The position numbers and the translations under genes were made by a program. A DNA stretch of 64,000 nucleotides from NCBI GenBank assembly GCA_902629575.1, contig CACORJ010000002.1, forward strand, positions 1-64,000, given 5' to 3'. The notes below the pieces were generated by a model. That model did not search any database. It was not told where the DNA came from and was given only the letters and a program-made list of their open reading frames with translations. Source of the DNA: an uncultured Pelagibacteraceae bacterium (GTDB taxonomy: Bacteria; Pseudomonadota; Alphaproteobacteria; Pelagibacterales; Pelagibacteraceae). Position 1 is the first letter of the stretch, and every line of letters begins with the position of its first letter. Below, one piece after another: positions 10,185 to 29,152 of this stretch.

Positions 10185-10928
10185 ATGAATAAATCGAGTT
10201 TTTTTATTGTTGGCCATCATGCTGTATTTGAGGCTCTAAAAAATCCTAATAGAAAAGTCTTAAGGTTATTTTTAACTGAGGAAAGCAAAAAAAATATTCA
10301 TAGAAAAAGTCCCAAAATAAATCTTTTAAAAGATATTAAAGTTTATTTTAGAACAAAAAAAGAATTAGATAAATTTACAACAAAAGAGAGCTTACTTCAC
10401 CAAGGATATGTTGCAGAAATTGAACATTTAGAAAAACCTATTTTGAAAGAATTTATACAAAATAAAAATGATGTTACGTTGGTATGTCTTGATGGTGTTA
10501 CAGATCCAAGGAATATTGGATCTTTAATTAGAAGCGCATCTTCATTCAAAATCGATGGAATTATAATTAAAGAGAGACATTTTCCAAGAGAAAGTAAACT
10601 TATGTATAAATCTGCCAGCGGTGCAATGGAATACATAAATATATTTGAAGTATCAAATGTAAACTCAACATTAAAAAATTTAAAAGATAAAAATTTTTGG
10701 GTTTATGGATTTGATGGAAATGGAGATAAAGATTTTACAGAAATTAAATGGAAAGGAAATAATATTCTTGTATTTGGATCTGAAGGAAAGGGTATGCATA
10801 AACATACCTCTAAATATGCCGATTTTATAGTTAAAATTGAAATCGATAAAAATATTGAAAGCTTAAATATATCGAATAGTGCCTCAATTGTTTTTCATCA
10901 TTTAAACTACTTAAAAAAAAAGTGTTGA
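10185..10928 (+). CDS. rlmB: TrmH-family RNA 2'-O-methyltransferase (RlmB-like)
   Basis: SpoU motifs DGVTDPRNIGSLIRSA, VFGSEGKGM, SLNISNSASIVFHH. Confidence 0.92.
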   Translation: MNKSSFFIVGHHAVFEALKNPNRKVLRLFLTEESKKNIHRKSPKINLLKDIKVYFRTKKELDKFTTKESLLHQGYVAEIEHLEKPILKEFIQNKNDVTLVCLDGVTDPRNIGSLIRSASSFKIDGIIIKERHFPRESKLMYKSASGAMEYINIFEVSNVNSTLKNLKDKNFWVYGFDGNGDKDFTEIKWKGNNILVFGSEGKGMHKHTSKYADFIVKIEIDKNIESLNISNSASIVFHHLNYLKKKC

Positions 10929-10961
10929 TTAATTTTAAAATAGTTAATAATTATTATTTAA

Positions 10962-11037
10962 GCCCTTGTAGCTCAGCTGGTAGAGCAATTGATTTGTAAT
11001 CAATAGGTCCGCGGTTCGAATCCGTGCGGGGGCACCA
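10962..11037 (+). tRNA. tRNA-Thr (TGT), CCA present
   Basis: GCCCTTGTAGCTCAGCTGGTAGAGCAATTGATTTGTAATCAATAGGTCCGCGGTTCGAATCCGTGCGGGGGCACCA; anticodon loop TTTGTAA. Confidence 0.97.
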
Positions 11038-11040
11038 TCA
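10984..11040 (+). repeat. Direct repeat copy 1 (inside functional tRNA-Thr; att core)
   Basis: Identical to 12648-12704 over 57 bp. Confidence 0.97.
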
Positions 11041-11102
11041 CTCAATAAATTCAACACTTATTATATTTGCTAAATTATTTTTTATTTAAATTTTGTAATT
11101 GG

Positions 11103-11135
11103 TTGTGCCAGGATTGTGCCAAGATAGTGCCAAGA
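11103..11135 (+). repeat. Three tandem 11-bp repeats TTGTGCCAGGA/TTGTGCCAAGA/TAGTGCCAAGA (arm-type-like recombinase sites)
   Basis: Exact 11-bp periodicity, 62 bp inside the left att core. Confidence 0.7.
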
Positions 11136-11156
11136 TCAAGTAGTCGTTTAAATTTT

Positions 11157-12116
11157 TTATTTGTCCTTCTCTACAAGCTCCATAACTCTTTCTCGAGTTT
11201 TTCCGATTGCCAAAGCATCATACCACACAACCATATTTTCCGTAATTTCTCCTAACTCTGCTTTAACTTCTTTTCTAAGAGCTATTTTGTTTTGTTCAAC
11301 AACTGGTCCTATCTTTAGATAACAATTAACTTTAGGTTTTTTCTTTCCAACACCTGAGTAAAGTGGTCCCTCAAATCTATAAGCTGGTGTTTCTGATCCA
11401 TCGATAAAAACTTCTATCAAACCATTTTCGTCAGCTCTATTTACAAAATGCACTAAGATGCTTGTCCATTCTGTTGCACCAAGATTTTTATTTATTTTCC
11501 CTTTAAAATTTTTTAATTTTGCCCAGACATCATCTGAAACATATCGTTGTAAGTTTGTACTATAAAACATTGGTTGTTGAAGATTGATCCACAAAAAGTC
11601 AGCTCTAAAATCTAAAAAAAACATTGGGAAGCCTTCATCATCTCCAGGCATTGATGCATAGCATTGACTGATATGTTTTTTTCTATATTGGTCAAAATAA
11701 TTTTGCATCGGTCTTACAGCATAATGAATCCATTTCTCTACACCCTTTCCAAAAGATCCTGAATGCTTAACTTCGGTTCTTGTCACACCCATAGAATGTT
11801 CACAATCATTATGAGCGTATTCACCTTTTCTTATTGTACAATTAGAGTAATCAACAACTGTTTGATAAAATTCTTTTCCTTTATAAGCCGACTCTGGTGC
11901 GCCTGTAACTAAACTCATCTCACCTTTACCAAGATATCCAAGAGATTTTTTCATCGACATACCTTGTATTTTCATCATCATTGGTTTTATTTTTGCATTA
12001 GGATTTTTTGTGAATTCTTGAGCAATCTTTTCATATCTAGCTTTTGTTTGCTCTGCTCCGTAAGCTGTGACACTTAACAACAAACCAAGAACCACGATCC
12101 CTAAAAGTTTTTTCAT
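11157..12116 (-). CDS. Secreted protein with predicted lectin/polysaccharide-lyase-like jelly-roll fold
   Basis: Signal peptide MKKLLGIVVLGLLLSVTAYGA; ADFLWINLQQP, EWTSILVHFVNRADENGLIEVFIDGSETPAYRFEGP, VVWYDALAIGKTRE resemble heparin/alginate-lyase-like beta-jelly-roll proteins. Confidence 0.55.
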   Translation of the reverse strand: MKKLLGIVVLGLLLSVTAYGAEQTKARYEKIAQEFTKNPNAKIKPMMMKIQGMSMKKSLGYLGKGEMSLVTGAPESAYKGKEFYQTVVDYSNCTIRKGEYAHNDCEHSMGVTRTEVKHSGSFGKGVEKWIHYAVRPMQNYFDQYRKKHISQCYASMPGDDEGFPMFFLDFRADFLWINLQQPMFYSTNLQRYVSDDVWAKLKNFKGKINKNLGATEWTSILVHFVNRADENGLIEVFIDGSETPAYRFEGPLYSGVGKKKPKVNCYLKIGPVVEQNKIALRKEVKAELGEITENMVVWYDALAIGKTRERVMELVEKDK

Positions 12117-12560
12117 TTAAATTAATCTCACAAAACTATTTTTGATTTTAGATATATCATACATAAACCCTTGCCATCCAGCCCTTCTTGCTGATGCAGA
12201 CAAAGGTTTTCTTGCAACAAATATTTCTTTGTTTTGCAAATCTGAAGCTAGGTAAAATACCGAGTATTCTTTTTTGCAGACTAAAACTAAATAAAGTGGA
12301 AAGTATATACCAGCGTTCATTCTTTCTTCTTGAGGCTTCCAGGCCGCTCCTAAAACTGAACTTGGAAGTTTGTTAATATTTTTTACATTCGAAGATTTAA
12401 CTTGAGCTAAAAATCCACAGAAATCACAAATCAAGTCTGCACACTTAAAGTTTGTTGGAAGCTTCTTAAGTGTTCTTTTCTTTTTGCATTTTGGACAAAT
12501 ACAATTTTTAACAATTAGCTCTTCTCCAAAAACTCCAAGCTTCTGTTTATCAGTAGGCAT
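12117..12560 (-). CDS. DpnI-like PD-(D/E)XK restriction endonuclease catalytic domain, stand-alone
   Basis: Zn-ribbon CPKC...CDFC, ADLICDFCGFLAQVKSS and RKPLSASARRAGWQGFMYDISKI align with DpnI ADFYCNHCSEEFELKSK and RKPLAPTARRAGWIGCNIDLSQV (DpnI sequence recalled from memory). Confidence 0.85.
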   Translation of the reverse strand: MPTDKQKLGVFGEELIVKNCICPKCKKKRTLKKLPTNFKCADLICDFCGFLAQVKSSNVKNINKLPSSVLGAAWKPQEERMNAGIYFPLYLVLVCKKEYSVFYLASDLQNKEIFVARKPLSASARRAGWQGFMYDISKIKNSFVRLI

Positions 12561-12575
12561 TAAAAAAGTTTATCA

Positions 12576-12597
12576 CTGTGCCCAGAGTGTGACCAGA
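12576..12597 (+). repeat. Two tandem 11-bp repeats CTGTGCCCAGA/GTGTGACCAGA (arm-type-like sites)
   Basis: Same motif, orientation and 11-bp period as 11103-11135; 50 bp inside the right att core. Confidence 0.65.
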
Positions 12598-12647
12598 TTA
12601 AAAATATTTTAAGATTATTGTTGCAAACAAATGTTTATTTAAACTTT

Positions 12648-12704
12648 AGCAATTGATTTGTAATCAATAGGTCCGCGGTTCGAATCCGTGCGGGGGCACC
12701 ATCA
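12648..12704 (+). repeat. Direct repeat copy 2 (orphan tRNA-Thr 3' fragment; att core)
   Basis: 57-bp identity with 10984-11040; lacks the tRNA 5' half. Confidence 0.97.
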
Positions 12705-12773
12705 TTAAATTAAGTCAATACTAACAATTCTCAAAAATAGATTTTTAAACAATTTTAATGTAGAAAATACCTA

Positions 12774-13544
12774 ATGAAAACTTTTATCCTTTGTGGAGGT
12801 TTTGGAACTAGACTTGATTACGAGGGAACCTTAATCGCTAAACCTATGGTTAGAATTGGAAGGAGTCCAATTTTAATGCATATTATTAATAATTACTTTG
12901 ACCAAGGATTTAATGATTTTGTTTTTTGTCTTGGACATAAATCAAATACAATTATTGATTATTTTTTAAAAGAGAATAAAAAAAATATCAAAATTATAAT
13001 TAAAGAGAAAAAATATATTAAATTTGAATTTAGAAATAAAAAAATAAAGTTTATTGGTAATTTGGTTTATACAGGTCTCAATTCAGGCACTGGTGGTAGA
13101 ATAAAAATTGCATATAATAAATTAAATCTTCAAGAAGATATAATGATGACTTACGGTGATGGATTGTCAAATGTTTCAATTAAAAGATTAATTAAATTTC
13201 ATTATAAAAATAAATCTTATGTTACAATGACTGCAGTTAGACCAAAGCAAAGGTATGGTGTACTCAAACTAGATAAAGATAAAGTTAAATATTTTGATAA
13301 CAGCAATAAAGTTTCAGATGTATTAATTAATGCTGGTTTTTTTGTGATCCACAAAGAGGCAATAAAAAGAATAAAAAACACAAAAACCTATTGGGAAAAA
13401 GAACCTTTAAGTTATTTTCTATCTAAAAAAAAATTATATGCTTTTAAACACAATGGATTTTGGAAAAGTTTAGATACACTTAAGGATAAAAATGATTTTA
13501 ATACACTGTTAAAAAATAAAAAAAAATTGCCATGGAAAATTTAA
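12774..13544 (+). CDS. rfbF: Glucose-1-phosphate cytidylyltransferase
   Basis: LCGGFGTRL...KPMVRIGRSPILMHI nucleotidyltransferase; next to CDP-glucose 4,6-dehydratase. Confidence 0.88.
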   Translation: MKTFILCGGFGTRLDYEGTLIAKPMVRIGRSPILMHIINNYFDQGFNDFVFCLGHKSNTIIDYFLKENKKNIKIIIKEKKYIKFEFRNKKIKFIGNLVYTGLNSGTGGRIKIAYNKLNLQEDIMMTYGDGLSNVSIKRLIKFHYKNKSYVTMTAVRPKQRYGVLKLDKDKVKYFDNSNKVSDVLINAGFFVIHKEAIKRIKNTKTYWEKEPLSYFLSKKKLYAFKHNGFWKSLDTLKDKNDFNTLLKNKKKLPWKI

Positions 13545-14608
13545 AAAGTTTAAAAAATTTTTATAATAATAAAAGAATATTTATTACTGGTCATACAGGG
13601 TTTAAAGGAACTTGGCTGAGTATTATTTTATGTCATCTTAACGCTAAGATTTATGGTTATTCTTTAACGCCAGAAAAAAATAGTTTATTCAAAAAATCAG
13701 GTATAAAGAATAAATTAAATTCAAATTCATATGCGGATATAAGAAATATAAATGATTTAAAAAAAAAGATTAATCTATCTAAACCTGAAATAATATTTCA
13801 TTTAGCAGCACAGCCACTTGTTATTGACTCTTTTGAAAAACCAGTTGAAACTTTCAATACAAATATATTAGGTACAGCGCATTTACTTGAATGTTTGAGA
13901 AATATTAATTCTGTAAAATCAGTAATAATAGTAACTACCGATAAAGTTTATAAAATTAACAAAAAAAGTAAGGCCTACAAAGAAGTAGATCAACTTGGTG
14001 GTATTGATCCTTATAGTGTCTCAAAAGTTGGAGCAGAAATGGTAACAGATTGTTATATTAAAACTTTTTTTAAAAACTCAAATTTGAGAAATAAAATATC
14101 TACGGTGAGAGCTGGTAATGTAATTGGTGGAGGTGATTTTTCTAAGAATAGATTGGTTCCTGATATAATAAGAGCTATTAATAGTAAAAAAAAACTTAGT
14201 GTAAGAAATCCTAATCATATCAGGCCTTGGCAACATGTTTTAGATCCATTAGTAGGATATTTAATTTTAGCAAAAAAACAATGTGTTCAAAAAATTAATA
14301 ATGATTTAGAATATGCTTGGAATTTTGGTCCAAACAAAAATAATTTTAAAAAAGTGTCTGAAGTTGTAAAAATGGCTCAAAAACTTGAAAATTTTAAATT
14401 CACTTTTGATAATAAAAAAAAAATTCAAGAAACTGCTATTTTAAAACTTGAAAGCAGTAAAGCTAAAAGAAAAATTAATTGGAGTTGTAAATGGAACCTT
14501 TCTGTCGCACTCGAAAAAACTATAGACTGGAATAAATCTATCAATAAAAAAATTTCAGCAGAAAATAAATGTGTGCAACAGTTCCTAACTTATATAAATA
14601 ACAAATAG
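13532..14608 (+). CDS. rfbG: CDP-glucose 4,6-dehydratase
   Basis: FITGHTGFKGTWLSIIL, VTTDKVY, DPYSVSKVGAE, RAGNVIGGGDF typical of RfbG. Confidence 0.92.
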   Translation: MENLKSLKNFYNNKRIFITGHTGFKGTWLSIILCHLNAKIYGYSLTPEKNSLFKKSGIKNKLNSNSYADIRNINDLKKKINLSKPEIIFHLAAQPLVIDSFEKPVETFNTNILGTAHLLECLRNINSVKSVIIVTTDKVYKINKKSKAYKEVDQLGGIDPYSVSKVGAEMVTDCYIKTFFKNSNLRNKISTVRAGNVIGGGDFSKNRLVPDIIRAINSKKKLSVRNPNHIRPWQHVLDPLVGYLILAKKQCVQKINNDLEYAWNFGPNKNNFKKVSEVVKMAQKLENFKFTFDNKKKIQETAILKLESSKAKRKINWSCKWNLSVALEKTIDWNKSINKKISAENKCVQQFLTYINNK

Positions 14609-14623
14609 ATCTTTGAGTGAAAT

Positions 14624-15835
14624 ATGACAAATAAAATAACAAGAATTCCTTATGGTTTAAACGTTTATAACAATGAGGAAATAAATGCAGTTTTAAAAAC
14701 TCTTAAAAATTCCACTCAAATGGGTAAAGCAGTAAATGTTTTTGAAAAAAAAATTTCTAAATTATTTTCCAAAAAATATGGATTGATGGTTAATTCAGGT
14801 TCTTCAGCTTTGCTTTTAGCTCTTAAAGCAGTTAATTTTAAAAAAGGAAGTGAAATCATCGTCCCCTGCTTAAATTTTGGTACTGCTATTTCTTCTATAA
14901 CATTGAGCAATTTAGTGCCAATATTTGTTGATTGTGAAGTAGATACTTTACAAATTGATACAAATAAAATTGAAAAAAAAATTACTAAAAAAACAAAAGC
15001 GTTACTTATTCCTAATTTGATCGGTAACTTGCCTAATTGGAAAAAAATTAGACAAATAGCAAACAAGCATAATTTGTTAGTCATGGAGGATTCTGCAGAC
15101 ACATTAGGAGCAACTATAAATTCAAAACCAAGTGGAATTTATAGCGATATATCAATTACTAGTTTTTACGGTTCACATATTATTAGTTGTGCAGGTAATG
15201 GGGGGATGCTTGTCACAAATAATAAAAACTTTTACACTAAAGCCAAAGTTTTAAGAAGCTGGGGTAGAATGTCAACGCTAATTAAAGACTCAGAGAACAT
15301 CAATAAAAGATTAAATATTAAGCTTAAGGGGTTTGAATATGACAGAAAATTTGTTTTTTCAGAGTCAGGTTATAACTTTGAGCCATCTGAAATTGGTGCA
15401 TCTTTTGGACTTATTCAATTAAAGAAATTTAAAAAGTTTAATATGATAAGAAATAGAAATTTCAGACTTCACTGCAATTTTTTCAAAAAAATGAATAAAT
15501 TGTTTATAGTGCCAAAAATTGAGAAAAATGTTAAAACTAATTTTTTAGCCTACCCTATTATACTTAAGAATAATAATAATTTTACCAGAAAAGAATTACA
15601 GATTTATCTAGAAAAAAACAAGATTCAAACCAGGCCAATATTTAGCGGTAACACACTAAGACATCCTGCATTTGAAAATCTTATATCAAAGAAAAATATT
15701 TTAAATTCTTTTAAAAACTCTGATTATATCATGAAATACGGTTTACTTGTAGGTTGCCATCAGGGTTTAAAAGAAAAAGATATAACTTATATTCATCGTA
15801 TAATATTAAATTTTATAAAAAAAACTAATTCGTGA
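14624..15835 (+). CDS. DegT/DnrJ-fold PMP-dependent sugar 3-dehydrase (RfbH/ColD-like, His instead of catalytic Lys)
   Basis: SFYGSHIISCAGNGGML has His at the Schiff-base Lys position; no Cys cluster after RSWGR. Confidence 0.82.
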   Translation: MTNKITRIPYGLNVYNNEEINAVLKTLKNSTQMGKAVNVFEKKISKLFSKKYGLMVNSGSSALLLALKAVNFKKGSEIIVPCLNFGTAISSITLSNLVPIFVDCEVDTLQIDTNKIEKKITKKTKALLIPNLIGNLPNWKKIRQIANKHNLLVMEDSADTLGATINSKPSGIYSDISITSFYGSHIISCAGNGGMLVTNNKNFYTKAKVLRSWGRMSTLIKDSENINKRLNIKLKGFEYDRKFVFSESGYNFEPSEIGASFGLIQLKKFKKFNMIRNRNFRLHCNFFKKMNKLFIVPKIEKNVKTNFLAYPIILKNNNNFTRKELQIYLEKNKIQTRPIFSGNTLRHPAFENLISKKNILNSFKNSDYIMKYGLLVGCHQGLKEKDITYIHRIILNFIKKTNS

Positions 15836-16602
15836 ATAAAAATATAAGAAATATTAGATCAAATATTTTAAATTTGTCTTTTAAAGCAAAGTCCTCCCAT
15901 ATTGGAAGTTGTCTGTCTATAGTTGAAATATTAGTTGCTCTATACTTTAATGTGTTAAAAAAAAATGATAGATTTATTCTAAGTAAGGGTCATGCTGCAT
16001 TAGCTCTTTATTGCACCTTATATGAAAAAAAATTTATCTCTCTAAAAAATTTAAATTCATTTGGTTCTAATAAAACCACGCTGATGAATCATGTTAGTCA
16101 TAAAGTCAAAGGGGTTGAATTTTCAACAGGATCTCTTGGACATGGATTACCAATATCTGTAGGGAAAGCACTTAAATTTAAAACTAACAAAGAGAGAAAC
16201 AGGGTATTTGTTGTTATCAGTGATGGAGAAATAAATGAGGGAACGACTTGGGAGAGTTTAATGTTTGCAAGCCATCACAAATTAGAGAATTTAACTATTA
16301 TAATTGATTATAATAAAATTCAAAGTATGGATTTTGTTGATAAAGTTATTAGCATTGAACCATTAAAATCTAAACTTTTATCTTTTGGATGTAATGTTCA
16401 TGAAGTAAATGGTCATAATATTAAATCCTTAAAAAAAATACTTAAAAAGAAAAATAAAAATAAACCTAAAGTAATAATTGCTCACACCACTAAAGGTAAA
16501 GGTATCAGTTTTATGGAAAATAATAATTTATGGCATTATAAAAATCCTAATAAAAATGAACTAGATGTTGGATTGAAGGAAATTAATAATAGATATGCGT
16601 AA
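15832..16602 (+). CDS. Transketolase N-terminal (ThDP-binding) subunit, GTG start
   Basis: SKGHAALALY, GSLGHGLPISVGKAL, DGEINEGTTWE, DYNKIQ. Confidence 0.92.
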   Translation: MNKNIRNIRSNILNLSFKAKSSHIGSCLSIVEILVALYFNVLKKNDRFILSKGHAALALYCTLYEKKFISLKNLNSFGSNKTTLMNHVSHKVKGVEFSTGSLGHGLPISVGKALKFKTNKERNRVFVVISDGEINEGTTWESLMFASHHKLENLTIIIDYNKIQSMDFVDKVISIEPLKSKLLSFGCNVHEVNGHNIKSLKKILKKKNKNKPKVIIAHTTKGKGISFMENNNLWHYKNPNKNELDVGLKEINNRYA

Positions 16603-17464
16603 ATTATTTATTAAAGAACTGACGAAGGCAAACAAAAAGAAAAATATTTACTTAATAATCAATGATCTTGGTTTTAATGTTATTGAGCCTTTTAAAGATA
16701 AATTTCCAGACAGAATATTTAATGCAGGAGTTTCTGAACAAAACATGATGGGTATGGCGGCTGGAATTGCGTCAGAAAAATGCAACGTGTTTGTTTATTC
16801 AATTGCAAATTTTTCAACCTTTAGATGTGCAGAACAAATTAGAAATGATATTGATTATCATAATTTACCTGTAACTATTGTTTCAGTTGGATCGGGACTT
16901 GGTTATGGAAATTTAGGTTACACTCACCATGCATTACAAGATTATGCATTGATGAGATGTTTTTCTAACATGATAATTATGTCGCCTGGTAATAACAACG
17001 AATTAGTTTCAATTATAAATTATATAAGGAAAAATCCCCAACCATCTTATCTTAGACTTGATAAGAATGATCAAATAGATAAAAAATTTAAAAAGATTAA
17101 AGTCGAGCCAGGAAAAATAATTAAATTAGTCAATGGAAATAGTAAAAAGATTATTCTAACGACTGGTAATGTTCAAAATTTAGCTCTCAAAATAAGAAAT
17201 AAAAAATTTAAAAATCACTCAGTTTACTCTATGCCAATTTGGGGCATGAAATATAAAATAAAATTTAGAAATTTGATAAAAAAATTTGATGAAATTATTA
17301 CAGTAGAGGATCATTTACATGATGGAGGTTTTGGATCTTGGATCAAAGAATGCCTTGTTAATACTAATATCAAAACAAAAATTAAATCAAAATTTATTAA
17401 AGATAGTGTAATTAATAAAGTTGGATCATCAGATTATTTGTTAAACAAATATGGTCCAAAATAA
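16595..17464 (+). CDS. Transketolase C-terminal subunit
   Basis: NAGVSEQNMMGMAAGIA, TYTHHALQDYALMR-type transketolase Pyr/C-terminal domain. Confidence 0.92.
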   Translation: MRKLFIKELTKANKKKNIYLIINDLGFNVIEPFKDKFPDRIFNAGVSEQNMMGMAAGIASEKCNVFVYSIANFSTFRCAEQIRNDIDYHNLPVTIVSVGSGLGYGNLGYTHHALQDYALMRCFSNMIIMSPGNNNELVSIINYIRKNPQPSYLRLDKNDQIDKKFKKIKVEPGKIIKLVNGNSKKIILTTGNVQNLALKIRNKKFKNHSVYSMPIWGMKYKIKFRNLIKKFDEIITVEDHLHDGGFGSWIKECLVNTNIKTKIKSKFIKDSVINKVGSSDYLLNKYGPK

Positions 17465-17476
17465 ATGAGTAAATAA

Positions 17477-18388
17477 TTGAAAAAACTTTTAATTTTAGGT
17501 GGAAGTGGTTATGTTGGAAGTTCATTTGTAAATAATGGAATTAATCAAAATTTAACGAAACACAAAATAAATGAAATTTTTATTGTATCTCGTAAAAATA
17601 AAGTAATTAAAAAAAAATACAAACATATTAAAATTAACTATATTTCTAAAAATATACTTAATATTAAAAAACTTCCTCAAGTAGATTATGTTATTTATTG
17701 TTTAAAACATCATAATATTAGAATTAGTGAAAATTATTTTAATCATTTTAACAAATTAATTTTAAAACTTTCCAAAAAACCAAAAATATTATTTACCAGC
17801 TCTGGTGCAGTATATGGTTATAATAATAAAAAAATTAAAAATAATGAAAATAATGAAATTAATTTAAAATTAATAAGAAAATTAAAAGGTTATAAAAAAA
17901 AATATGCAATGGAAAAAATTTTTATCGAAAAAAAATTTAATGACTTGACCTTACAAAAATATAACGTTTCAATTGCAAGATGTTATACATTTATTGGTAA
18001 GGAAATTATTAAATACAAATATGCTGTAGCAGATTTAATTAATCTCACTCTTAAAAAAAAAATTATTAAATTGAAAACATCTACAAATATATACAGAAGC
18101 TATATGCATTCAGATGACTTAGTTAACTGGCTAATTGTAATTCTAAAAAATTCAAATAAAGAATGTCCAATATATAATGTTGGGTCTGATAAAGTAATAA
18201 ATCTTAAAAATTTAGCAAAATTATTTGCAAGACTATTCAATAATAAAATATCATTAAAAAAAATTACATCAAAAAGCTATGATTACTACGTTCCCTCAAT
18301 AGCTAGAGCTCGTAAAAAGCTTAATTTGAAAATTTCAATTAATTTGAAGGATGCAATAAATTCAACTATAAAAAGCTTAAATGACTAA
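17477..18388 (+). CDS. NAD-dependent epimerase/reductase (extended SDR), TTG start
   Basis: GGSGYVGSSF Rossmann motif, YAMEK (YxxxK), TSSGAVYG. Confidence 0.85.
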   Translation: MKKLLILGGSGYVGSSFVNNGINQNLTKHKINEIFIVSRKNKVIKKKYKHIKINYISKNILNIKKLPQVDYVIYCLKHHNIRISENYFNHFNKLILKLSKKPKILFTSSGAVYGYNNKKIKNNENNEINLKLIRKLKGYKKKYAMEKIFIEKKFNDLTLQKYNVSIARCYTFIGKEIIKYKYAVADLINLTLKKKIIKLKTSTNIYRSYMHSDDLVNWLIVILKNSNKECPIYNVGSDKVINLKNLAKLFARLFNNKISLKKITSKSYDYYVPSIARARKKLNLKISINLKDAINSTIKSLND

Positions 18389-19307
18389 AATAAGTATTGT
18401 AACTCCCACATTTAATGAGGAAAAAAATATAGAAAAATTATGTTCTGATATTAGAGCTGAAATGAAAAAAAATGATATCAATTATGAACACATTGTAATC
18501 GATAATGCCTCTACAGACAGAACAACATCTATTTTAAAAAAAATTTGTTTAGAGGACAAAAATCTCAAACTGATCATCAATTCAAAAAATTTTGGTCATA
18601 TAAAATCACCTTTTTATGGAATTTTACAAAGTACGGGAGATGCGTGTATTTTGATGGCTTCGGATTTTCAAGATCCAATTAATTTAATTCCAAAATATAT
18701 TGAAAAATGGAAAAATGGTTCAAAAATTGTGCTTGCAAAAAAAATTACATCCCAAGAAAATAATTTGATGTTTTCAATTAGGAAAAAATTTTATAAATTT
18801 TTGAATAAAATTTCAGAAACAAAATTAACTGAAAATACAACCGGGTCAGGAATTTTTGATAAATCAATAATTGACAAATTACGAATTATAAACGACCCAT
18901 ACCCTTATTTAAGAGGATTATTAAATGAAATAGGTGAAAAAATAGATATCATCGAGTTTGATCAACCAAAAAGGTTGTTTGGTAAAACAAAAAATAACTT
19001 TTTTACCCTTTACGATATTGGAATGCTGGGCATCATTAAACATTCAAGAGCTCCAATAAGATTAGTTACTTTAATAGGTTTTGTTTTTAGTTTTTTATCA
19101 TTTTTAACTGCTTTGGTTTATTTGGTTTATAAATTAATTTTTTGGAATTCATTTGAACTAGGTATTGCTCCATTAATTATTGGTATTTTTAGTTTGGCAT
19201 CAATACAAATTTTGCTACTTGGTATAATTGGTGAATATATTGGAATATTATTGATACACCAAAGAAACTTGCCTCTTGTTATAGAAAAAGAGAGAATAAA
19301 CTTTTAA
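18381..19307 (+). CDS. GT2 family glycosyltransferase, DPM1/GtrB-like with C-terminal TM helices
   Basis: ISIVTPTFNEEKNIEKL, DNASTDRT, MASDFQDP, two C-terminal hydrophobic segments. Confidence 0.9.
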   Translation: MTKISIVTPTFNEEKNIEKLCSDIRAEMKKNDINYEHIVIDNASTDRTTSILKKICLEDKNLKLIINSKNFGHIKSPFYGILQSTGDACILMASDFQDPINLIPKYIEKWKNGSKIVLAKKITSQENNLMFSIRKKFYKFLNKISETKLTENTTGSGIFDKSIIDKLRIINDPYPYLRGLLNEIGEKIDIIEFDQPKRLFGKTKNNFFTLYDIGMLGIIKHSRAPIRLVTLIGFVFSFLSFLTALVYLVYKLIFWNSFELGIAPLIIGIFSLASIQILLLGIIGEYIGILLIHQRNLPLVIEKERINF

Positions 19308-19361
19308 GCAAAGGGACAAAAATTATAATTTTTTAGTAAAAAAAAATATCTGTTAAAAAAC

Positions 19362-21158
19362 ATGAAAAATAAATCAATTTTTAAACGACTTGATATAATT
19401 TTTATTTCAATTTTAGTTATTATATTCTTTATAAATGGTTTAAATAAAATTTCTTATGGCCTACCCTATTTTGTTAATCAAGATGAACTTGAATTTCAAA
19501 GTAGTACTCTTTCTTCCCTTGGTTTTTTCACAAATTATATTGATCTTAACAATTATAACCCTTTATATGCACCTTTAATAAATTTAATAATTATACTTAA
19601 ATTTTTTTTTATAAACGAATTTTTAATAAATTCATTGACTGTAGATCAAGTTAAATTAAAAATTTATTTTAACCCAGAATTATTTATATTTTATGGTAGA
19701 GCAGCTAGTTTAGCTATAACAACTTTTTCAATTTTTTTCTTATATCTAATTTTTAAAAAGTTAAAAATAAATTTTTTTATTTATAGTGTTCTTCTAATTA
19801 CATTCTGCACTTCTGCAGTTGTGTTAAACATTTCAACTATTATGAGTAAAAATTCATGTAATTTATTATTGTACACATTACAGCTATACTTTTTAGTTAA
19901 ATATTTATTTAAAATTGAAAAATTTAATCTCAAATCATATTTCATATTTGGTTTACTGGCATCTCTTGCTTGGGGGGTCAATTATTGGCCAGCATTTATC
20001 TCAATATATGCAGTGTTTATATTACATTTTAAAAAATTTAAATTATTAAGATTACATTATTTATTATTATTTCTAATAATTTTTACCATTTTAGGCCCAA
20101 TCGTTAATTCTTTTTTTGTTGGAATGGGGCCTATAGATCATATAACTCCATTTGATGAAATGGAGAGGCTAAAACCATTTGAATTCGGTTTATTTTTAGA
20201 AAATTTAATTCGTAATATAGTTTCAAGTTTAAAAATAATTTATTCTACAGATAAAAATATTATTTTATTACTCATAATAGTACCCTTATTTTTTTTGAAA
20301 AAAAATATTTATCTTAAAAACGAGTTTTTAATAATTCTTTTTTTATTTATAGCACCATTATTTATATTTGGAATTTCAGGAAATTTTTATCCCCAACTAA
20401 GATACTTTGCTGGAATTATTTCTGTAATAATAATTTTAACAGCTTATATTTTGAATGAACTCAACAAAATAAAATTTAAATATTTAACTATTATTTTGTT
20501 GCTATTTAATTTTTTATTTATTTACATTAACATCAAACAGAATATTAAGATTGAAAATGTCCTTTCTGTTAAACATTCCTTTATCAATTTTAACAAGAAA
20601 ATTGATGAAAAAAATATAGACCGATCAAAAATACTCTACCTAGTTGATTTAAATTTTCAAGAAAGTTTGAAACAAAATCTTTTATATGTAGAACTATATG
20701 AGAATGATCTTATATATAAAAATAATGATTCTCTAAAAATGCTTAAAAACTCAATTAAAAAAATTAAAAAGATTAATAATACCAAGAATATAGAAACAAA
20801 CACAGAAGATTTAAAAAAAGATATAACTTTCTTTAGCTATACTTATTTGCCAATTAAAGATCCTGAAACTTTTTTTAATTTTATTAAAAAAGACTTTGAT
20901 TACCTAGTTTTAGAAGAGTCAAAACCTTTTTATATGTCAGATAGTGGTTTACAGAATAAATTAAAAAAGTATGTAAAAGAAAATTATCTATTAGAATTAA
21001 TGCAATTCGATGATAATAAAATTTTTCTTAATAATCAACAATCTATAATCCATTATTATGTGGATACACTTAGTCGCTACGACTTAGTTAAAAATATTGA
21101 TAATAAAAAATTAGAAGTAATTTACGGCATAAATTATTCATTATACAAGTTAGACTAA
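19362..21158 (+). CDS. Multi-TM GT-C fold glycosyltransferase
   Basis: Many TM segments; YFVNQDELEFQ acidic motif in first loop; adjacent to GtrB-like GT2. Confidence 0.7.
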   Translation: MKNKSIFKRLDIIFISILVIIFFINGLNKISYGLPYFVNQDELEFQSSTLSSLGFFTNYIDLNNYNPLYAPLINLIIILKFFFINEFLINSLTVDQVKLKIYFNPELFIFYGRAASLAITTFSIFFLYLIFKKLKINFFIYSVLLITFCTSAVVLNISTIMSKNSCNLLLYTLQLYFLVKYLFKIEKFNLKSYFIFGLLASLAWGVNYWPAFISIYAVFILHFKKFKLLRLHYLLLFLIIFTILGPIVNSFFVGMGPIDHITPFDEMERLKPFEFGLFLENLIRNIVSSLKIIYSTDKNIILLLIIVPLFFLKKNIYLKNEFLIILFLFIAPLFIFGISGNFYPQLRYFAGIISVIIILTAYILNELNKIKFKYLTIILLLFNFLFIYINIKQNIKIENVLSVKHSFINFNKKIDEKNIDRSKILYLVDLNFQESLKQNLLYVELYENDLIYKNNDSLKMLKNSIKKIKKINNTKNIETNTEDLKKDITFFSYTYLPIKDPETFFNFIKKDFDYLVLEESKPFYMSDSGLQNKLKKYVKENYLLELMQFDDNKIFLNNQQSIIHYYVDTLSRYDLVKNIDNKKLEVIYGINYSLYKLD

Positions 21159-21182
21159 TTTATTATCATTTAAAAAGAATTT

Positions 21183-21956
21183 TTATTTTATTTCTCTTCT
21201 TAATTGTTCAATTTTTATCTTTTGCTGTAGACTTCTACTTTTATCGTATAAAAGATTAAATTTTATTTTTTGATTAGTTTTAATCTTAATATTTTTTGCG
21301 TTTCTTACTTCAATATTATCAGCTACTGCACTGATTGGTCTTTTTATAGGATTTAAATTATTTATAGTGATTTGTGATCTGTCACTGATTATTTTTCCTT
21401 TCCATCTACGAGGACGAAATGGGCTTATGGGTGAAATAGATAATTTTTTTGAATTTAAACTTAATATAGGTCCATGTACTGATAGATTATAAGCTGTACT
21501 ACCTGCTGGAGTAGAAACTAAAACCCCATCAGAGATAAGTTTTTTTATTATTTGCTTGGATCCTTGTTTAATGGATAATGAAGCAGCTTGCCTACTTTGA
21601 CGTAAAATCGAAACTTCATTGATAGCTAAAAATTTTCTAATCTGATTTTTGTTATTTTTTACTATCATTTCAAGGGGTGAAATTATTATCTTTTTTGCCT
21701 TAGATAAATTATTCATCAAATTCTTTGTAGAAAATTTATTCATTAAAAAACCATAGTTCCCTGAGTTAATTCCATAAAAAGATTTATTTGTATTTTTGTT
21801 TTTCTTTAAAGTCTGGAGCATAAAACCATCACCACCAATTACGATTGTTATGTTAGATTTAACACGATTTGAGTCTTTTATTCTTTTAACTAATGATTTT
21901 TTTATATTTTGAGATCTTTTATTTTTATCAGAAATAATTTGAATTTTGCTCATCAT
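21183..21956 (-). CDS. nadK: NAD kinase
   Basis: VIGGDGFMLQTLK, SDGVLVSTPAGSTAYNLSVHGPIL; start trimmed to MMSKIQII because the ORF-track extension runs into tRNA-Leu. Confidence 0.92.
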   Translation of the reverse strand: MMSKIQIISDKNKRSQNIKKSLVKRIKDSNRVKSNITIVIGGDGFMLQTLKKNKNTNKSFYGINSGNYGFLMNKFSTKNLMNNLSKAKKIIISPLEMIVKNNKNQIRKFLAINEVSILRQSRQAASLSIKQGSKQIIKKLISDGVLVSTPAGSTAYNLSVHGPILSLNSKKLSISPISPFRPRRWKGKIISDRSQITINNLNPIKRPISAVADNIEVRNAKNIKIKTNQKIKFNLLYDKSRSLQQKIKIEQLRREIK

Positions 21957-24060: not shown

Positions 24061-27000
24061 TTAACAGGAAGCTTTACCACATGGGCCCATTCTATTTACA
24101 TCGTGGTTACCTAACTCATTCTCCAATTCAATTTGAGTTTTGCCTGCTTTTTCCGCTTCTGCAATTTTTTGCATTGCTTCTTCATAACTCTTTGCACCTA
24201 AGTAATTGAATTCATTTCCATTCATTTCGGCTTGAAGTTGTCTGATCGCAGCTGTTACCTCTAGTGTATGCATTCCACTAGAGCCTGGCATTTGCTCCAT
24301 TGCCCACAATGCATCTAAGGCAGCTTCTTGAGCTGTTTTAGCTGCTGCTTGAACTGTTTCTTTAACTTCAGAAGCTGCTTCTTGAGCTGCAGCGGATGCT
24401 ACTTGAGCAACATCTTGAGCTGCAGCGGTTGCGTCCTGCGCTGCTGCTTGTGCAACTTGTGCAGCTTGGTTTGCTACAGATGACTGAGCTACTGCTGCGG
24501 CTGCTTGTTTGATACTTGCTTGTTCCATCTTTTTAGCAGCCATAAATGCATCTTCTGCAGCTTGTGCAGCTACTTTATCACCAGATGCTACCGCATCATC
24601 CCATTCTTTTCGAGCAGCTAATCTTGCAGCTTTTGCATTAGCAAATGCTTTTGATTGTTCTGTTGTTGCTCCTACTGTTTCTATTGCGCTTGATTGTGCA
24701 ATTACCTCTACTTTTTGTGAAACAGAAATAGTTTTCGCGGCAGTAATAAATTCTGGAGTTACTAATTCTTTATTTAATGCGTTTGCAGTATAAACTTTTG
24801 TATTTACTGATAATTCAGTTGTAGGGTCTATAAATTTAGAAGGATCATCAATTAATTTATTTTTATCAACAACACTAACTAGATTTGTTCCTTCAAGTGC
24901 AATAACAACTTTACCATCAATCACTTTGACTGATTTAAGTGCTTTCTCATTAACATTAAGGCCAAGTTTCTTCGCAGTAGCCATAGCCAACTCAGCCTTA
25001 ACTTCTTTAAAATTCTCTAAATCCTGATTTAAATTAGCAATTTGATTAGCTATTTCTGGGCTTTCAGCTTCTAAAACACTAAGTTCCGTTGTAATTGAAG
25101 TTAACTGATTGTTAATTTCATTACTTTGGTTTTCAAATTCTTTTATTTGATTATCTAATTGAGCAATTTGACTTTCAAATTCAGCTTTTAACCTATTTGC
25201 CTCATCTGATACTTCTCCCTGATCTTTAACTTGATTTGCGATAGTACTAAGTTGTTCATTAAGTTTGCCATCTAATTCTGTTCTTTGTCCCTGAAGTTCA
25301 TTTATTTTATTACTTATAGGGTTTAACTGCTCTTGTATTGACGTCAAATTTTTTGTTTTTTCAGCGATTAAACTTTCTTTAGAACTAAATTGATTAGTTA
25401 AATCATTTATTTGTTTTTCTAATTCACCTTCAGAATTTTTTAAAGAAGATAGTTCGCTCTCTAGTTTTGAAATATTTTCATTTAAGTTTGCTAGCTCAGA
25501 ATTATTTTTGTTTATCTCTGATTTTAGAGCATCAACTTGACCATTTAAAACAAGAAGTGTTGGATTATTAGATCCATACATTTTCTCTAATTCTTTTTCA
25601 AGATCAGCTCTTTGAGCTGTTGAAAGTTGCAATTTATCATCTTCATTGTAATGAGTGTAACTATAATTCCCATTTAGTTTTGAATGAACAATTGCTGCTA
25701 ACTTGACATTAGTCATTTCATAATAATGACTATCAAATGCGGGTGTTTCACCAATTTTTTTTGCATTATCGACTGCTGCTTTAAAAGCATCATAAGTGTT
25801 TTCATCACCATCTAATGCAGCAATTAATCCAGCAGCTTTGTCATCATAACCGATAATTTGACCTGCTCCAATTCTGTAATAACCACCAGAAATAACTTCT
25901 TTAGCTCTTTTTCTTTGGGCTTCATCAAAAGTTGGGACTTGGTCTAAAATTTCAAATATTGCATCCTCAGTATTATATAGTCCACCTGTTTTAGCAATTT
26001 CCTCAGTTCTAATTTTATTTATTTCATTAACAGCTTCATCTTTTAAATTAATAACATTTTCTCTAGCCACTTTAGCTGCTTCACTTTGGATTTTAACTGA
26101 CTCAAATTGAAGATTATTTATTTCATTTTTCACAGTCCATTGATCACCAGAAGTTTCAAAATCTCGCATAGCAATCATTTGTTCAGAATACTTATTCAAT
26201 GCTTCTGTTGTCTTAACAGTATTAACTCGATTTAGTTCACCAATTTTTGCATCAAACTCTCTTACTGTCTTAGTCCATTTTGAGTGATCTGGTTGTCCTT
26301 GCGCTCGATAAAGCAATGCGATTCCTCCCCCAACAGTAGGATCGGCCTCGTTTATTGATGCCAAATATTTATTTTTTTCTAAATTTATTTTATTAATTTC
26401 TGCTCGCGCTTCCCAAGCTTGATTACTTATTTTTGAAATTTCTGAATTATATTTATCAATCATTTCTCTATAAGCTTTACCTTCTTCTAAAATTTTTGAA
26501 TATAGATCGTTTTTTTCCTTTAATGATTTTTGTAACTGACTAAATTCTTGGTTATTACTTAGTATTTCACTAAATTGTTCAGCAACTAATTTTCCCTCTT
26601 TTGTTCCTTCGACAACAGCGTTAGATAAGTTTCCATTAATATCTAATCTTGTGAATGCCAATGAAACTTTAGACGGATCAATGGTCGCAAAATCTTGGTA
26701 CTGTTCAGTCCTCTCCTTTACAATTTTATTAACTTGCTCTTGTACTTTTCTGCTTTCCTCTAATGTAAAAACTGCTTCTTGAATTGCTTTTTCTTCAGCT
26801 ATTAAAACATTTAATTCAGCAGTAGAAGGTTTGTTCACTACCCAATTAGGATTATTGCTAAGTTTATTATATATATTTTTAACTACACTTTTTTGAGTGT
26901 CCCAATCATCATTTAAAGCAGCATTAATACCACTTTGAATTTCATCTTCAGAAAGACCAGCAAAAGTTCCATATTTTTCTATTTCAAATGCTCTAGATCT

Positions 27001-28314
27001 TCTCGGATCACCATCTAAAAGCGCGCCAACCTCCCTGAAAGCAAAATCAATCTCTGTTTCAGACATATCTGCATCTTTAAATACATTTCCATAAATTTGA
27101 AAATGTTCGACTTCTTTATCTATAGATCTTTCAAATTGAGTTTGGATAAAATCTCTCTGCAATGAGGTAGATTCTAACCTATCATTAAGTCCTGCTACTT
27201 TGTCTTTTAAATCGGTATTTTTAAGCTTATCAAGTTCTAAACTTTTTTGAGATATGATTTCTTTGTTAGCTGTAATTTGACTATTAAGATTTATAATTTC
27301 ATCTTCAATTTTTGTTTTATTTGCAATTTCATTAGTCAAATCTAAATTTAAGCTTTGAATTTGTTGCTGTAATGCACTTGATTGACTTTCTGCAGTTTGG
27401 ATTTCATTTGTTACATTACTTAGTTGGCTACTTAATTGACCAGCTAATTCTTTACTTTTACTCATCTCTTCACGAGACAAAATTGCTGAAGATTGTTTTA
27501 CAATTTCCTCGTTATATTTTGCTAGAAGGTTGGTTTTTTGTGCTTCAAGATTAGATATTTGATTTGAGAGAGGATCAATTTTTGATTGTAGTTCTGTTAA
27601 TGAAGTTCTCTTATCCAATATTGCTGCACTATTAGTTTGTAATTGTTGTTCTAGATCTACAACTTTATTATTAATTTCATTATCAGGAATTGCTTCATTA
27701 CCAGCACTTGTTACTATTGATCCAGTATAAGAGTCTGCCCACTGTTCTTTTGTCCATTTTTCTAAATTTTCAGCTCCATCCACATCTAAAACTAGTTTTA
27801 TTGTATCAACCCCCATACCATTTAGATTTTCAGAAATAGATACTGTATCGATGCCTTTAAGATTCAGATCCATTAAATCTGACATGAATTCGTTTTCTTT
27901 TTCTACTTTGGCTACATTCATTTGTACTGTTAATTCATTTATCAGATTCATATCTTCTTTTGATATTCCGCTAATATCTATGTTAGTCATATCGGAACTG
28001 AACTCTTGGGGAATTATATTTCCAACATCTACTAAACTTTTTTCAATAAAGTTTAACGTTTTAATAGCATCTTCAGCATTATCGTTGTTTATAGCATCTT
28101 GAACATACTCAGTTGCTTTATCAATTTCTTTAATTGCTTCATCAATAATTTTTGATTGATCTGTTACAGCTTCAGAAGCATTATCAAATTTTTCTCTAGC
28201 TTCAGTTATTGCATCTGTAAGGTCAGATACATCTTCGATTGCATATGATTTAGATAATGAAAAAAATAAAATAAAAATTATGATTGCTAAAATTTTATTC
28301 AACTGATTTTTCAT
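24061..28314 (-). CDS. Giant secreted coiled-coil protein with Ala-rich 11-residue-repeat C-terminus
   Basis: Signal peptide MKNQLNKILAIIIFILFFSLSKSYA; two long coiled coils with PLSNQI/PISNKI repeats; Ala-rich tail; start chosen at the internal Met before the signal peptide. Confidence 0.8.
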   Translation of the reverse strand: MKNQLNKILAIIIFILFFSLSKSYAIEDVSDLTDAITEAREKFDNASEAVTDQSKIIDEAIKEIDKATEYVQDAINNDNAEDAIKTLNFIEKSLVDVGNIIPQEFSSDMTNIDISGISKEDMNLINELTVQMNVAKVEKENEFMSDLMDLNLKGIDTVSISENLNGMGVDTIKLVLDVDGAENLEKWTKEQWADSYTGSIVTSAGNEAIPDNEINNKVVDLEQQLQTNSAAILDKRTSLTELQSKIDPLSNQISNLEAQKTNLLAKYNEEIVKQSSAILSREEMSKSKELAGQLSSQLSNVTNEIQTAESQSSALQQQIQSLNLDLTNEIANKTKIEDEIINLNSQITANKEIISQKSLELDKLKNTDLKDKVAGLNDRLESTSLQRDFIQTQFERSIDKEVEHFQIYGNVFKDADMSETEIDFAFREVGALLDGDPRRSRAFEIEKYGTFAGLSEDEIQSGINAALNDDWDTQKSVVKNIYNKLSNNPNWVVNKPSTAELNVLIAEEKAIQEAVFTLEESRKVQEQVNKIVKERTEQYQDFATIDPSKVSLAFTRLDINGNLSNAVVEGTKEGKLVAEQFSEILSNNQEFSQLQKSLKEKNDLYSKILEEGKAYREMIDKYNSEISKISNQAWEARAEINKINLEKNKYLASINEADPTVGGGIALLYRAQGQPDHSKWTKTVREFDAKIGELNRVNTVKTTEALNKYSEQMIAMRDFETSGDQWTVKNEINNLQFESVKIQSEAAKVARENVINLKDEAVNEINKIRTEEIAKTGGLYNTEDAIFEILDQVPTFDEAQRKRAKEVISGGYYRIGAGQIIGYDDKAAGLIAALDGDENTYDAFKAAVDNAKKIGETPAFDSHYYEMTNVKLAAIVHSKLNGNYSYTHYNEDDKLQLSTAQRADLEKELEKMYGSNNPTLLVLNGQVDALKSEINKNNSELANLNENISKLESELSSLKNSEGELEKQINDLTNQFSSKESLIAEKTKNLTSIQEQLNPISNKINELQGQRTELDGKLNEQLSTIANQVKDQGEVSDEANRLKAEFESQIAQLDNQIKEFENQSNEINNQLTSITTELSVLEAESPEIANQIANLNQDLENFKEVKAELAMATAKKLGLNVNEKALKSVKVIDGKVVIALEGTNLVSVVDKNKLIDDPSKFIDPTTELSVNTKVYTANALNKELVTPEFITAAKTISVSQKVEVIAQSSAIETVGATTEQSKAFANAKAARLAARKEWDDAVASGDKVAAQAAEDAFMAAKKMEQASIKQAAAAVAQSSVANQAAQVAQAAAQDATAAAQDVAQVASAAAQEAASEVKETVQAAAKTAQEAALDALWAMEQMPGSSGMHTLEVTAAIRQLQAEMNGNEFNYLGAKSYEEAMQKIAEAEKAGKTQIELENELGNHDVNRMGPCGKASC

Positions 28315-29152
28315 TTTCCTCCTCCTCAGTTTCATCCTCGAGCTTTTTCTTTAAATCGGCTATCTTAAACTTATAAGATTCTAATAATTTTTGTCTTTCT
28401 TTTAAGTCTTTAGCTAATTTGTCGTGTTTAACAGCTGTTCCTAAGTCTAAAAATTCTCCTAACATCCAAAATTTTTTAATTGCCTCTTTTGTGGGAGTAT
28501 CAGGGTTCATGCCTAGTGCCGCCCTCATACTATTCTTTCCTTTATTAATACCAAATAAAGACCGAATTTTTTCTTCATCCTCCTCTTTTTTGCTAAAAAT
28601 ACCCTCTTTATAATTGTTTTCTTTGTATCTTTCTAAAGCTTTTTTACTAGACCAAAGTTTAGACGCATAAAAAATTTCAAACATTGCCATTGCTTTAATC
28701 ATTTGCCCAGGATTTTTTTGTTGATATGCTTTACTTCCATTAAAAACTCTAAACAACTCTCCACCAGCTTTTTTACCTCTGCAACCGAAACTGTTATTGC
28801 ATCCTTTAAATTTTTTTGTCATTCCTTCAGGGTAATAAGATGCATCAAGTTTTTTAGGTTTTCCTAATTCCTCTATTTTTTCCAAAGTAATTTCCTCTTT
28901 ATCTTCATCTTTATCTTTTTTTTTAAATGGATTTTTTTTTTCTTTTTTCTTTACTAGTGATAAAGATTTTTTTTCAGTTTTTTTTTCTTTTGGCTTTTCT
29001 AAAAATTCAACAGCTTTTTCATATTCTGCTTTAGTAATTCCACCAGCCTCATAAATCTTTTTTAGTTCATCTTTCTTTTGGTCCAAACTTTTAGCAAATA
29101 CATTGAAAGTAAATAAAAAAATAACAGAAAAATAAATCAGAATTTTTTTCAT
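28295..29152 (-). CDS. Secreted protein, SHOCT-like N-terminal segment, charged coiled-coil C-terminus
   Basis: MKKILIYFSVIFLFTFNVFA signal peptide; LDQKKDELKKIYEAGGITKAEYEKAVEFL; ORF-track start is 15 aa upstream; overlaps the giant gene by 20 bp. Confidence 0.65.
   Translation of the reverse strand: MKKILIYFSVIFLFTFNVFAKSLDQKKDELKKIYEAGGITKAEYEKAVEFLEKPKEKKTEKKSLSLVKKKEKKNPFKKKDKDEDKEEITLEKIEELGKPKKLDASYYPEGMTKKFKGCNNSFGCRGKKAGGELFRVFNGSKAYQQKNPGQMIKAMAMFEIFYASKLWSSKKALERYKENNYKEGIFSKKEEDEEKIRSLFGINKGKNSMRAALGMNPDTPTKEAIKKFWMLGEFLDLGTAVKHDKLAKDLKERQKLLESYKFKIADLKKKLEDETEEEENEKSVE

Follow-up and report, generated by a model that had tools for sequence, protein, structure and literature searches.

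A split transketolase in CDP-glucose gene cassettes of SAR11 and other bacteria, and a predicted route to C-4-branched sugars

Yersinia pseudotuberculosis makes yersiniose A, a sugar of its surface polysaccharide, by the YerE/YerF route, in which two carbons are added at C-4 of CDP-4-keto-3,6-dideoxyglucose and the branch is then reduced by a short-chain dehydrogenase/reductase (SDR). YerE, the thiamine diphosphate (ThDP) enzyme of this branching, has a decarboxylase-superfamily fold (PMC12247030). Ketosugar branching by a transketolase (TK) has only been proposed, for miharamycin and amipurimycin of Streptomyces, and a 2025 review lists 13 further split-gene TK candidates, all from Streptomyces and none characterized (PMC12247030). 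Here we analyzed an eight-gene cassette in the first 64,000 nucleotides (the window) of contig CACORJ010000002.1, from an uncultured Pelagibacteraceae bacterium of the SAR11 group. Genes for the formation and conversion of CDP-glucose stand there next to a TK encoded in two halves, and the cassette probably makes a CDP-activated, C-4 two-carbon-branched deoxysugar that it passes to a lipid carrier. In the open-access literature, subscription papers lying outside that coverage, we found no report of clusters combining CDP-glucose and TK genes and none of a polysaccharide with a 1,2-dihydroxyethyl branch linked to such clusters.

The predicted steps of the window have in common with the yersiniose A pathway the conversion of CDP-glucose to CDP-4-keto-3,6-dideoxyglucose, a ThDP-dependent two-carbon addition at C-4, an SDR and a surface polysaccharide as the destination of the sugar. 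They differ in that YerE uses pyruvate, whereas the ThDP enzyme of the window is a split TK, whose product is expected to carry an additional hydroxyl in its branch, and in that no E3 reductase would take part. The window enzyme falls outside the acetolactate synthase/decarboxylase superfamily: it has Transketolase_N and Transket_pyr/C domains, and its top matches are the TK structures 6yak and 6yaj. The chemistry would be yersiniose-like, with an enzyme that is not YerE. The miharamycin and amipurimycin systems likewise have a split-gene TK proposed to transfer hydroxyacetyl to a ketosugar, but they make nucleoside antibiotics, not CDP-glucose-derived surface glycans, and are placed in Streptomyces only (PMC12247030); they are likened to the window by description.

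In the proposed pathway, the RfbF-like protein and RfbG would yield CDP-4-keto-6-deoxyglucose, as their family membership supports, and an E1/ColD-type enzyme would remove O-3 to give CDP-4-keto-3,6-dideoxyglucose, probably in a cluster-free, ColD-like reaction with no E3. With a ketose phosphate or hydroxypyruvate as donor of a glycolaldehyde unit, the split TK, using ThDP, would extend the sugar at its 4-ketone. The resulting tertiary alcohol would bear a 4-C-hydroxyacetyl group, whose side-chain ketone the SDR would reduce to a 1,2-dihydroxyethyl branch. The GtrB-like family 2 glycosyltransferase (GT2) would then use polyprenyl phosphate as acceptor of the sugar, which the membrane protein encoded last may attach to a periplasmic glycan. 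For the branching step, the reaction itself, the compound serving as donor, the place of the branch and its stereochemistry are predictions from sequence.

The association of TK with CDP-glucose genes recurs widely. The first six genes of the cassette are found in identical order in another SAR11 genome, G018 (locus L040; 64-73% identity for the dehydrase and TK), and G025 (L039) has the same gene order up to the contig end (72-77%). A Methylovirgula plasmid shows the order rfbF-rfbG-SDR-rfbH-TKN-TKC, TKN and TKC being the two TK halves, and a Paenibacillus plasmid shows rfbF-rfbG-methyltransferase-[SDR fused to TKN]-TKC. When a TK-C alignment of five sequences was run against a single genome of each species, 80 loci were retrieved; rfbF and/or rfbG was nearby in 49, 27 of which also had rfbH, and four further loci, on short contigs, had rfbH only. 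The 49 loci, together with L039, L040, L059, L060 and the window, make up 54 CDP-linked loci, including the near-duplicates L039/L064 and L040/L063. rfbH is present in 31 of the 54 and absent from 23. By record titles these loci span 11 phyla, many of the records being metagenome-assembled genomes, so that single assignments may be wrong.

Since the 80 loci came from CDP-linked queries, linkage was assessed in 299 Pseudomonadota genomes sampled without selection, 79 of which carry rfbG, the TK and rfbG positions being compared by eye. Seven of the 13 TK-C matches of at least 270 bits (window included) had rfbG no more than 5 kb away on their own contig, and for three more, in fragmented assemblies, rfbG was on a different contig, compared with 1/85 linked among the weaker matches. 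With a chance linkage rate of about 0.13% per locus (binomial P of 1e-17; high versus low TK-C matches, Fisher P of 9e-7), this sample rules out chance co-location of TK and rfbG.

Both TK halves have their closest solved relatives in the two-subunit split TK of Carboxydothermus hydrogenoformans, the N half matching 6yak (the N-terminal component; E of 2.5e-51) and the C half 6yaj (E of 1.5e-25). In Escherichia coli TktA numbering, the N half keeps H26, H66, H100, D155, N185 and H261 and the C half the catalytic E411, H473 and R358; the window pair conserves the whole canonical ThDP site, the catalytic Glu and the set of active-site histidines. The ThDP and donor residues are retained in all 54 CDP-linked loci. 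Relative to E. coli, H461 is replaced by G, D469 by L and R520 by K in the window, and the C. hydrogenoformans enzyme retains the canonical H and D, unlike the window (ATHAGLTVGEDGASHQ versus SVGSGLGYGNLGYTHH). Position 461 is G in 54/54 CDP-linked loci, position 469 is a non-acid (L, M, Q or A) in 54/54, and R520 is replaced by K in 53/54. In transketolase, these three residues touch the phosphate of the substrate or the alpha-hydroxyl group of the acceptor. The acceptor of these TKs may then be something other than an alpha-hydroxy aldehyde phosphate.

Other ThDP enzymes were seen in the genomes scanned. The host genome, G000, encodes a separate full-length TK (a 656-residue frame at C3:22115) and a DXS-like protein; the full-length TK rules out that the split pair substitutes for a missing central transketolase. 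Elsewhere in that genome, L006 (G000:C15, 9072-11996) holds an E1-alpha/E1-beta-like ThDP pair followed by a lipoyl-like domain joined to a hexapeptide acetyltransferase, in a sugar cluster with DegT, SDR, NeuB-like and HisH/HisF-like genes. L041 to L045, from a SAR11-order family (f2), have split TKs with the same GxxYGxLGxSHH signature, several of them beside DegT aminotransferases, and no CDP-glucose genes are in view at these loci. A different split TK pair, with a C half of only about 160 residues (Pyr, no C-terminal domain), occurs in L040 (1270-2489), L055, L056 and L057; in L040 an SDR comes next, and alcohol dehydrogenase and heptose-kinase/nucleotidyltransferase-type genes flank the pair. 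In phage records, TKs are only divergent and differently placed.

It might be argued that the TK pair works on free sugar phosphates, making or rearranging, say, a heptulose or tetrose phosphate that goes into a different residue of the glycan, the CDP genes giving an unbranched 3,6-dideoxyhexose with the SDR as its 4-ketoreductase. The fold is indeed that of a transketolase, and the different pair of L040 adjoins hldE-like genes. We nevertheless find this unlikely, as the linkage of TK to rfbFG is specific and phylum-wide, a fusion of SDR with the TK N half exists, H461 and D469, which contact phosphate and alpha-hydroxy acceptors, are consistently lost, and the genome already has a full-length TK.

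A ThDP enzyme adding hydroxyacetyl at C-4 would leave a ketone on the branch, and the genes next to TK are those that could act on it. The window SDR, which adjoins TK-C as it does in L040 and L039, has the motifs GGSGYVG (GxxGxxG), S-S-G and YxxxK, with SRK at the end of the second strand; judged by eye, these suggest an NADPH-using reductase. Leaving the window aside, 49 of the 53 CDP-linked loci have an SDR within the cassette or close to it. In the remaining four (L076, L079, L093 and L097), there is an additional DegT protein whose catalytic Lys (SFQGAK) makes it a Lys-type aminotransferase; in L076 it is fused to a GNAT domain, and a formyltransferase is nearby in L079. L073, a locus of the same type with no rfb genes in view, resembles these SDR-less, aminotransferase-bearing loci. 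The DegT proteins beside the TK pair in L076 (6430-8190), L079 (6547-8202) and L073 (5726-7423) are 550-590 residues long, that of L073 showing a weak GNAT match, and N-formyltransferase genes lie nearby in L079 and L073. In Paenibacillus, the SDR and the TK N half form a single chain of 635-650 residues (L060, 7097-9004; L126, 7052-9004), a fusion that was followed residue by residue in L060. Reduction in most loci and amination in some are what would be expected of a shared side-chain ketone intermediate. The earlier note had predicted a TK-type two-carbon branch, and the comparison supports it through the rfbFG linkage, the acceptor-side substitutions, the SDR/TK-N fusion and the aminotransferase found where the SDR is absent.

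Branching may also be real with a product in the window other than a simple dihydroxyethyl branch, the branch being aminated, re-reduced or elaborated, or the acceptor being another keto-sugar. Sister cassettes do contain aminotransferase, formyltransferase and C-methyltransferase genes, and among the cassettes without rfbH several bear a C-methyltransferase instead (e.g., L074), L067 having a C-methyltransferase plus rfbH on the other strand. In the window itself, only the SDR follows the TK pair and the dehydrase immediately precedes it, and we regard this alternative as slightly less probable still than that of a free sugar phosphate.

The enzymes predicted to supply the ketosugar were compared with curated profiles. 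The RfbF-like protein scored 227.7 bits against TIGR02623 (E of 1.5e-67), under the curated cut-off of 300, and has a 67% identical homologue in the same-order cassette of G018. RfbG scored 415 bits against TIGR02622, over the cut-off of 278, and thus represents the CDP-glucose 4,6-dehydratase that the yersiniose pathway requires. The top NCBIfam model for the DegT-family dehydrase was RfbH, at 291 bits against a cut-off of 423. Its closest solved relative is E1 (RfbH/DdhC; 3bcx, E of 5.8e-56, 193 bits), followed by the GDP-4-keto-6-deoxymannose 3-dehydratase ColD (about 5e-50, 174 bits), and alignment to both shows that it retains the catalytic His that replaces the pyridoxal phosphate (PLP) Lys (SFYGSHIIS). 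Unlike E1, which has a 2Fe-2S cysteine motif, the window protein and all SAR11 cassettes of this type seen have STLIKDSENI in place of the RfbH cysteine loop (DCYCAPGKDNTC). The motif is absent from the window and five SAR11 loci (L039, L040, L063, L065 and L066; L064 duplicates L039) and kept in the RfbH of every other lineage examined.

No E3 partner (PF00175-type) was found in five SAR11 genomes (G000, G018, G025, G150 and G151), an argument limited by possibly missing contigs (G000 is 89.5% complete) and by the general scarcity of PF00175 in streamlined genomes; such a reductase was present in all three tested chromosomes bearing a Cys-type RfbH. The "3-dehydrase" of the earlier note is therefore of E1/ColD type, with the catalytic His, and is not a standard RfbH, as it lacks both the 2Fe-2S cysteines and E3. 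Because the loop is replaced and the reductase was not found, the SAR11 enzyme likely works by a cluster-free, E3-free reaction as in ColD, which has the catalytic His with no Fe-S cluster and no E3; ColD differs in its GDP-mannose substrate, whereas the window context is CDP-glucose. The missing Fe-S ligands and the wide spread of the system go beyond what the earlier note had described.

The GT2 scored 162 bits against PgfS (NF047588), under the cut-off of 500, and its top solved relative is sll0501, a GtrB structure (5ekp; E of 1.5e-41). It combines a GT2 domain and this homology with two C-terminal hydrophobic spans, in agreement with its designation as GtrB-like. GtrB-type GT2 genes, often with GtrA, occur in 17 other CDP-linked cassettes. 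Compared with GtrB polyprenyl-phosphate glycosyltransferase systems, no GtrA was found in the window cassette, and the predicted donor is a branched CDP sugar rather than UDP-glucose. The context agrees with polyprenyl phosphate as carrier of the sugar and with a transfer to a periplasmic glycan at a late stage. The last open reading frame (ORF), which had been called a GT-C, has no Pfam or PDB match despite about 8 hydrophobic spans; these make the label plausible, for a candidate.

All eight ORFs of the cassette, at 12774-21158, were recovered in the proposed order, their families being matched by domain, profile and PDB searches (Table 1). They are tightly packed and mostly overlap, with starts before the previous stop at 13532/13544, 15832/15835, 16595/16602 and 18381/18388.

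Table 1. Genes of the CDP-glucose/transketolase cassette, in window coordinates
Product	Position	Strand	Basis
ddhA/rfbF-like glucose-1-phosphate cytidylyltransferase (CDP-glucose formation)	12774..13544	+	TIGR02623, PF00483
ddhB/rfbG CDP-glucose 4,6-dehydratase (to CDP-4-keto-6-deoxyglucose)	13532..14608	+	TIGR02622
E1/ColD-type PLP sugar 3-dehydrase, 2Fe-2S cysteines absent (WGRMSTLIKDSENI)	14624..15835	+	PDB matches, loop comparison
Transketolase N-terminal half (ThDP-diphosphate domain), GTG start	15832..16602	+	PF00456
Transketolase C-terminal half (Pyr + C domains), acceptor side altered	16595..17464	+	PF02779/PF02780
Extended Epimerase-type SDR, candidate NADPH-type side-chain ketoreductase, TTG start	17477..18388	+	PF01370, motifs
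GtrB/PgfS/ArnC-type GT2, predicted polyprenyl phosphate loader	18381..19307	+	NF047588, PDB 5ekp
Multi-span membrane protein, candidate GT-C acceptor glycosyltransferase	19362..21158	+	about 8 hydrophobic spans

The host genome is 1.06 Mb, and the nearest named relatives of the cassette are from uncultured Pelagibacteraceae. The GC content of the cassette is 23-27%, versus about 31-35% in the flank just upstream. It is bounded by rlmB/tRNA-Thr on one side and NAD kinase/tRNA-Leu on the other. The site is a variable island spot, because the gap between rlmB and NAD kinase differs among relatives, from about 120 bp (G012, G010) to 2.8-7.1 kb (G005, G004, G008 and G009, the last with 7.1 kb); in the window the island covers 10928-21183. 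Next to the cassette, on the opposite strand, 11157-12116 encodes a secreted-looking protein with a polysaccharide-lyase match (PF14099), and downstream of the island 24061-28335 encodes a repetitive, coiled-coil-like protein of 1424 residues. That the cassette is a degenerating or non-functional island, as its variable insertion spot and the 120-bp spacing in two relatives might suggest, is very improbable given that its ORFs are all intact and overlapping, catalytic residues are kept, and dehydrase and TK homologues about 64-77% identical stand in the same order in two other genomes.

Several observations weigh against the proposed TK-dependent branching. G461 and L469 are frequent also where related split TKs have no CDP genes close by, so that H461G/D469L is ruled out as a CDP-only signature and marks a wider sugar-cluster subfamily; K520 alone is enriched with CDP context, yet it occurs in 16 loci without it too. 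The CDP-linked TKs are not monophyletic: a supported set of 52 rows joins the window to other CDP-linked TKs, 44 CDP-linked rows in all, and some CDP-linked TKs fall outside it, ruling out a single clade. The acceptor varies among cassettes, because 23 of the 54 have no rfbH, and in the window the TK could have a different ketosugar from the cluster as its substrate. The SDR encoded there is divergent, and its putative role as a reductase is read from motifs.

On balance we favor, with modest confidence, a hitherto unrecorded route, phylum-wide in its spread, by which bacterial glycans would gain C-branched CDP sugars. Hydroxyacetyl would be added to a CDP-4-ketosugar by a remodelled split TK, and not by a YerE-type decarboxylase, the new ketone would then be reduced or aminated, and the SAR11 version would be fed by an Fe-S-less, E3-free 3-dehydrase. 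Few ThDP enzymes add to ketones, and such enzymes are in demand. The cassettes offer many TK gene pairs for which the acceptor to try is obvious, carried by bacteria in culture such as Aquitalea pelogenes (L087), Polynucleobacter (L079) and Limnohabitans (L074), making the question testable. If true, the cluster-free dehydrase would show how 3-deoxysugars can be made without an E3 reductase. The predicted class of sugars, with dihydroxyethyl or aminated branches at C-4, would be displayed on the surfaces of common marine, freshwater and gut bacteria, with SAR11, whose surface glycans sit in variable islands, among the predicted carriers.

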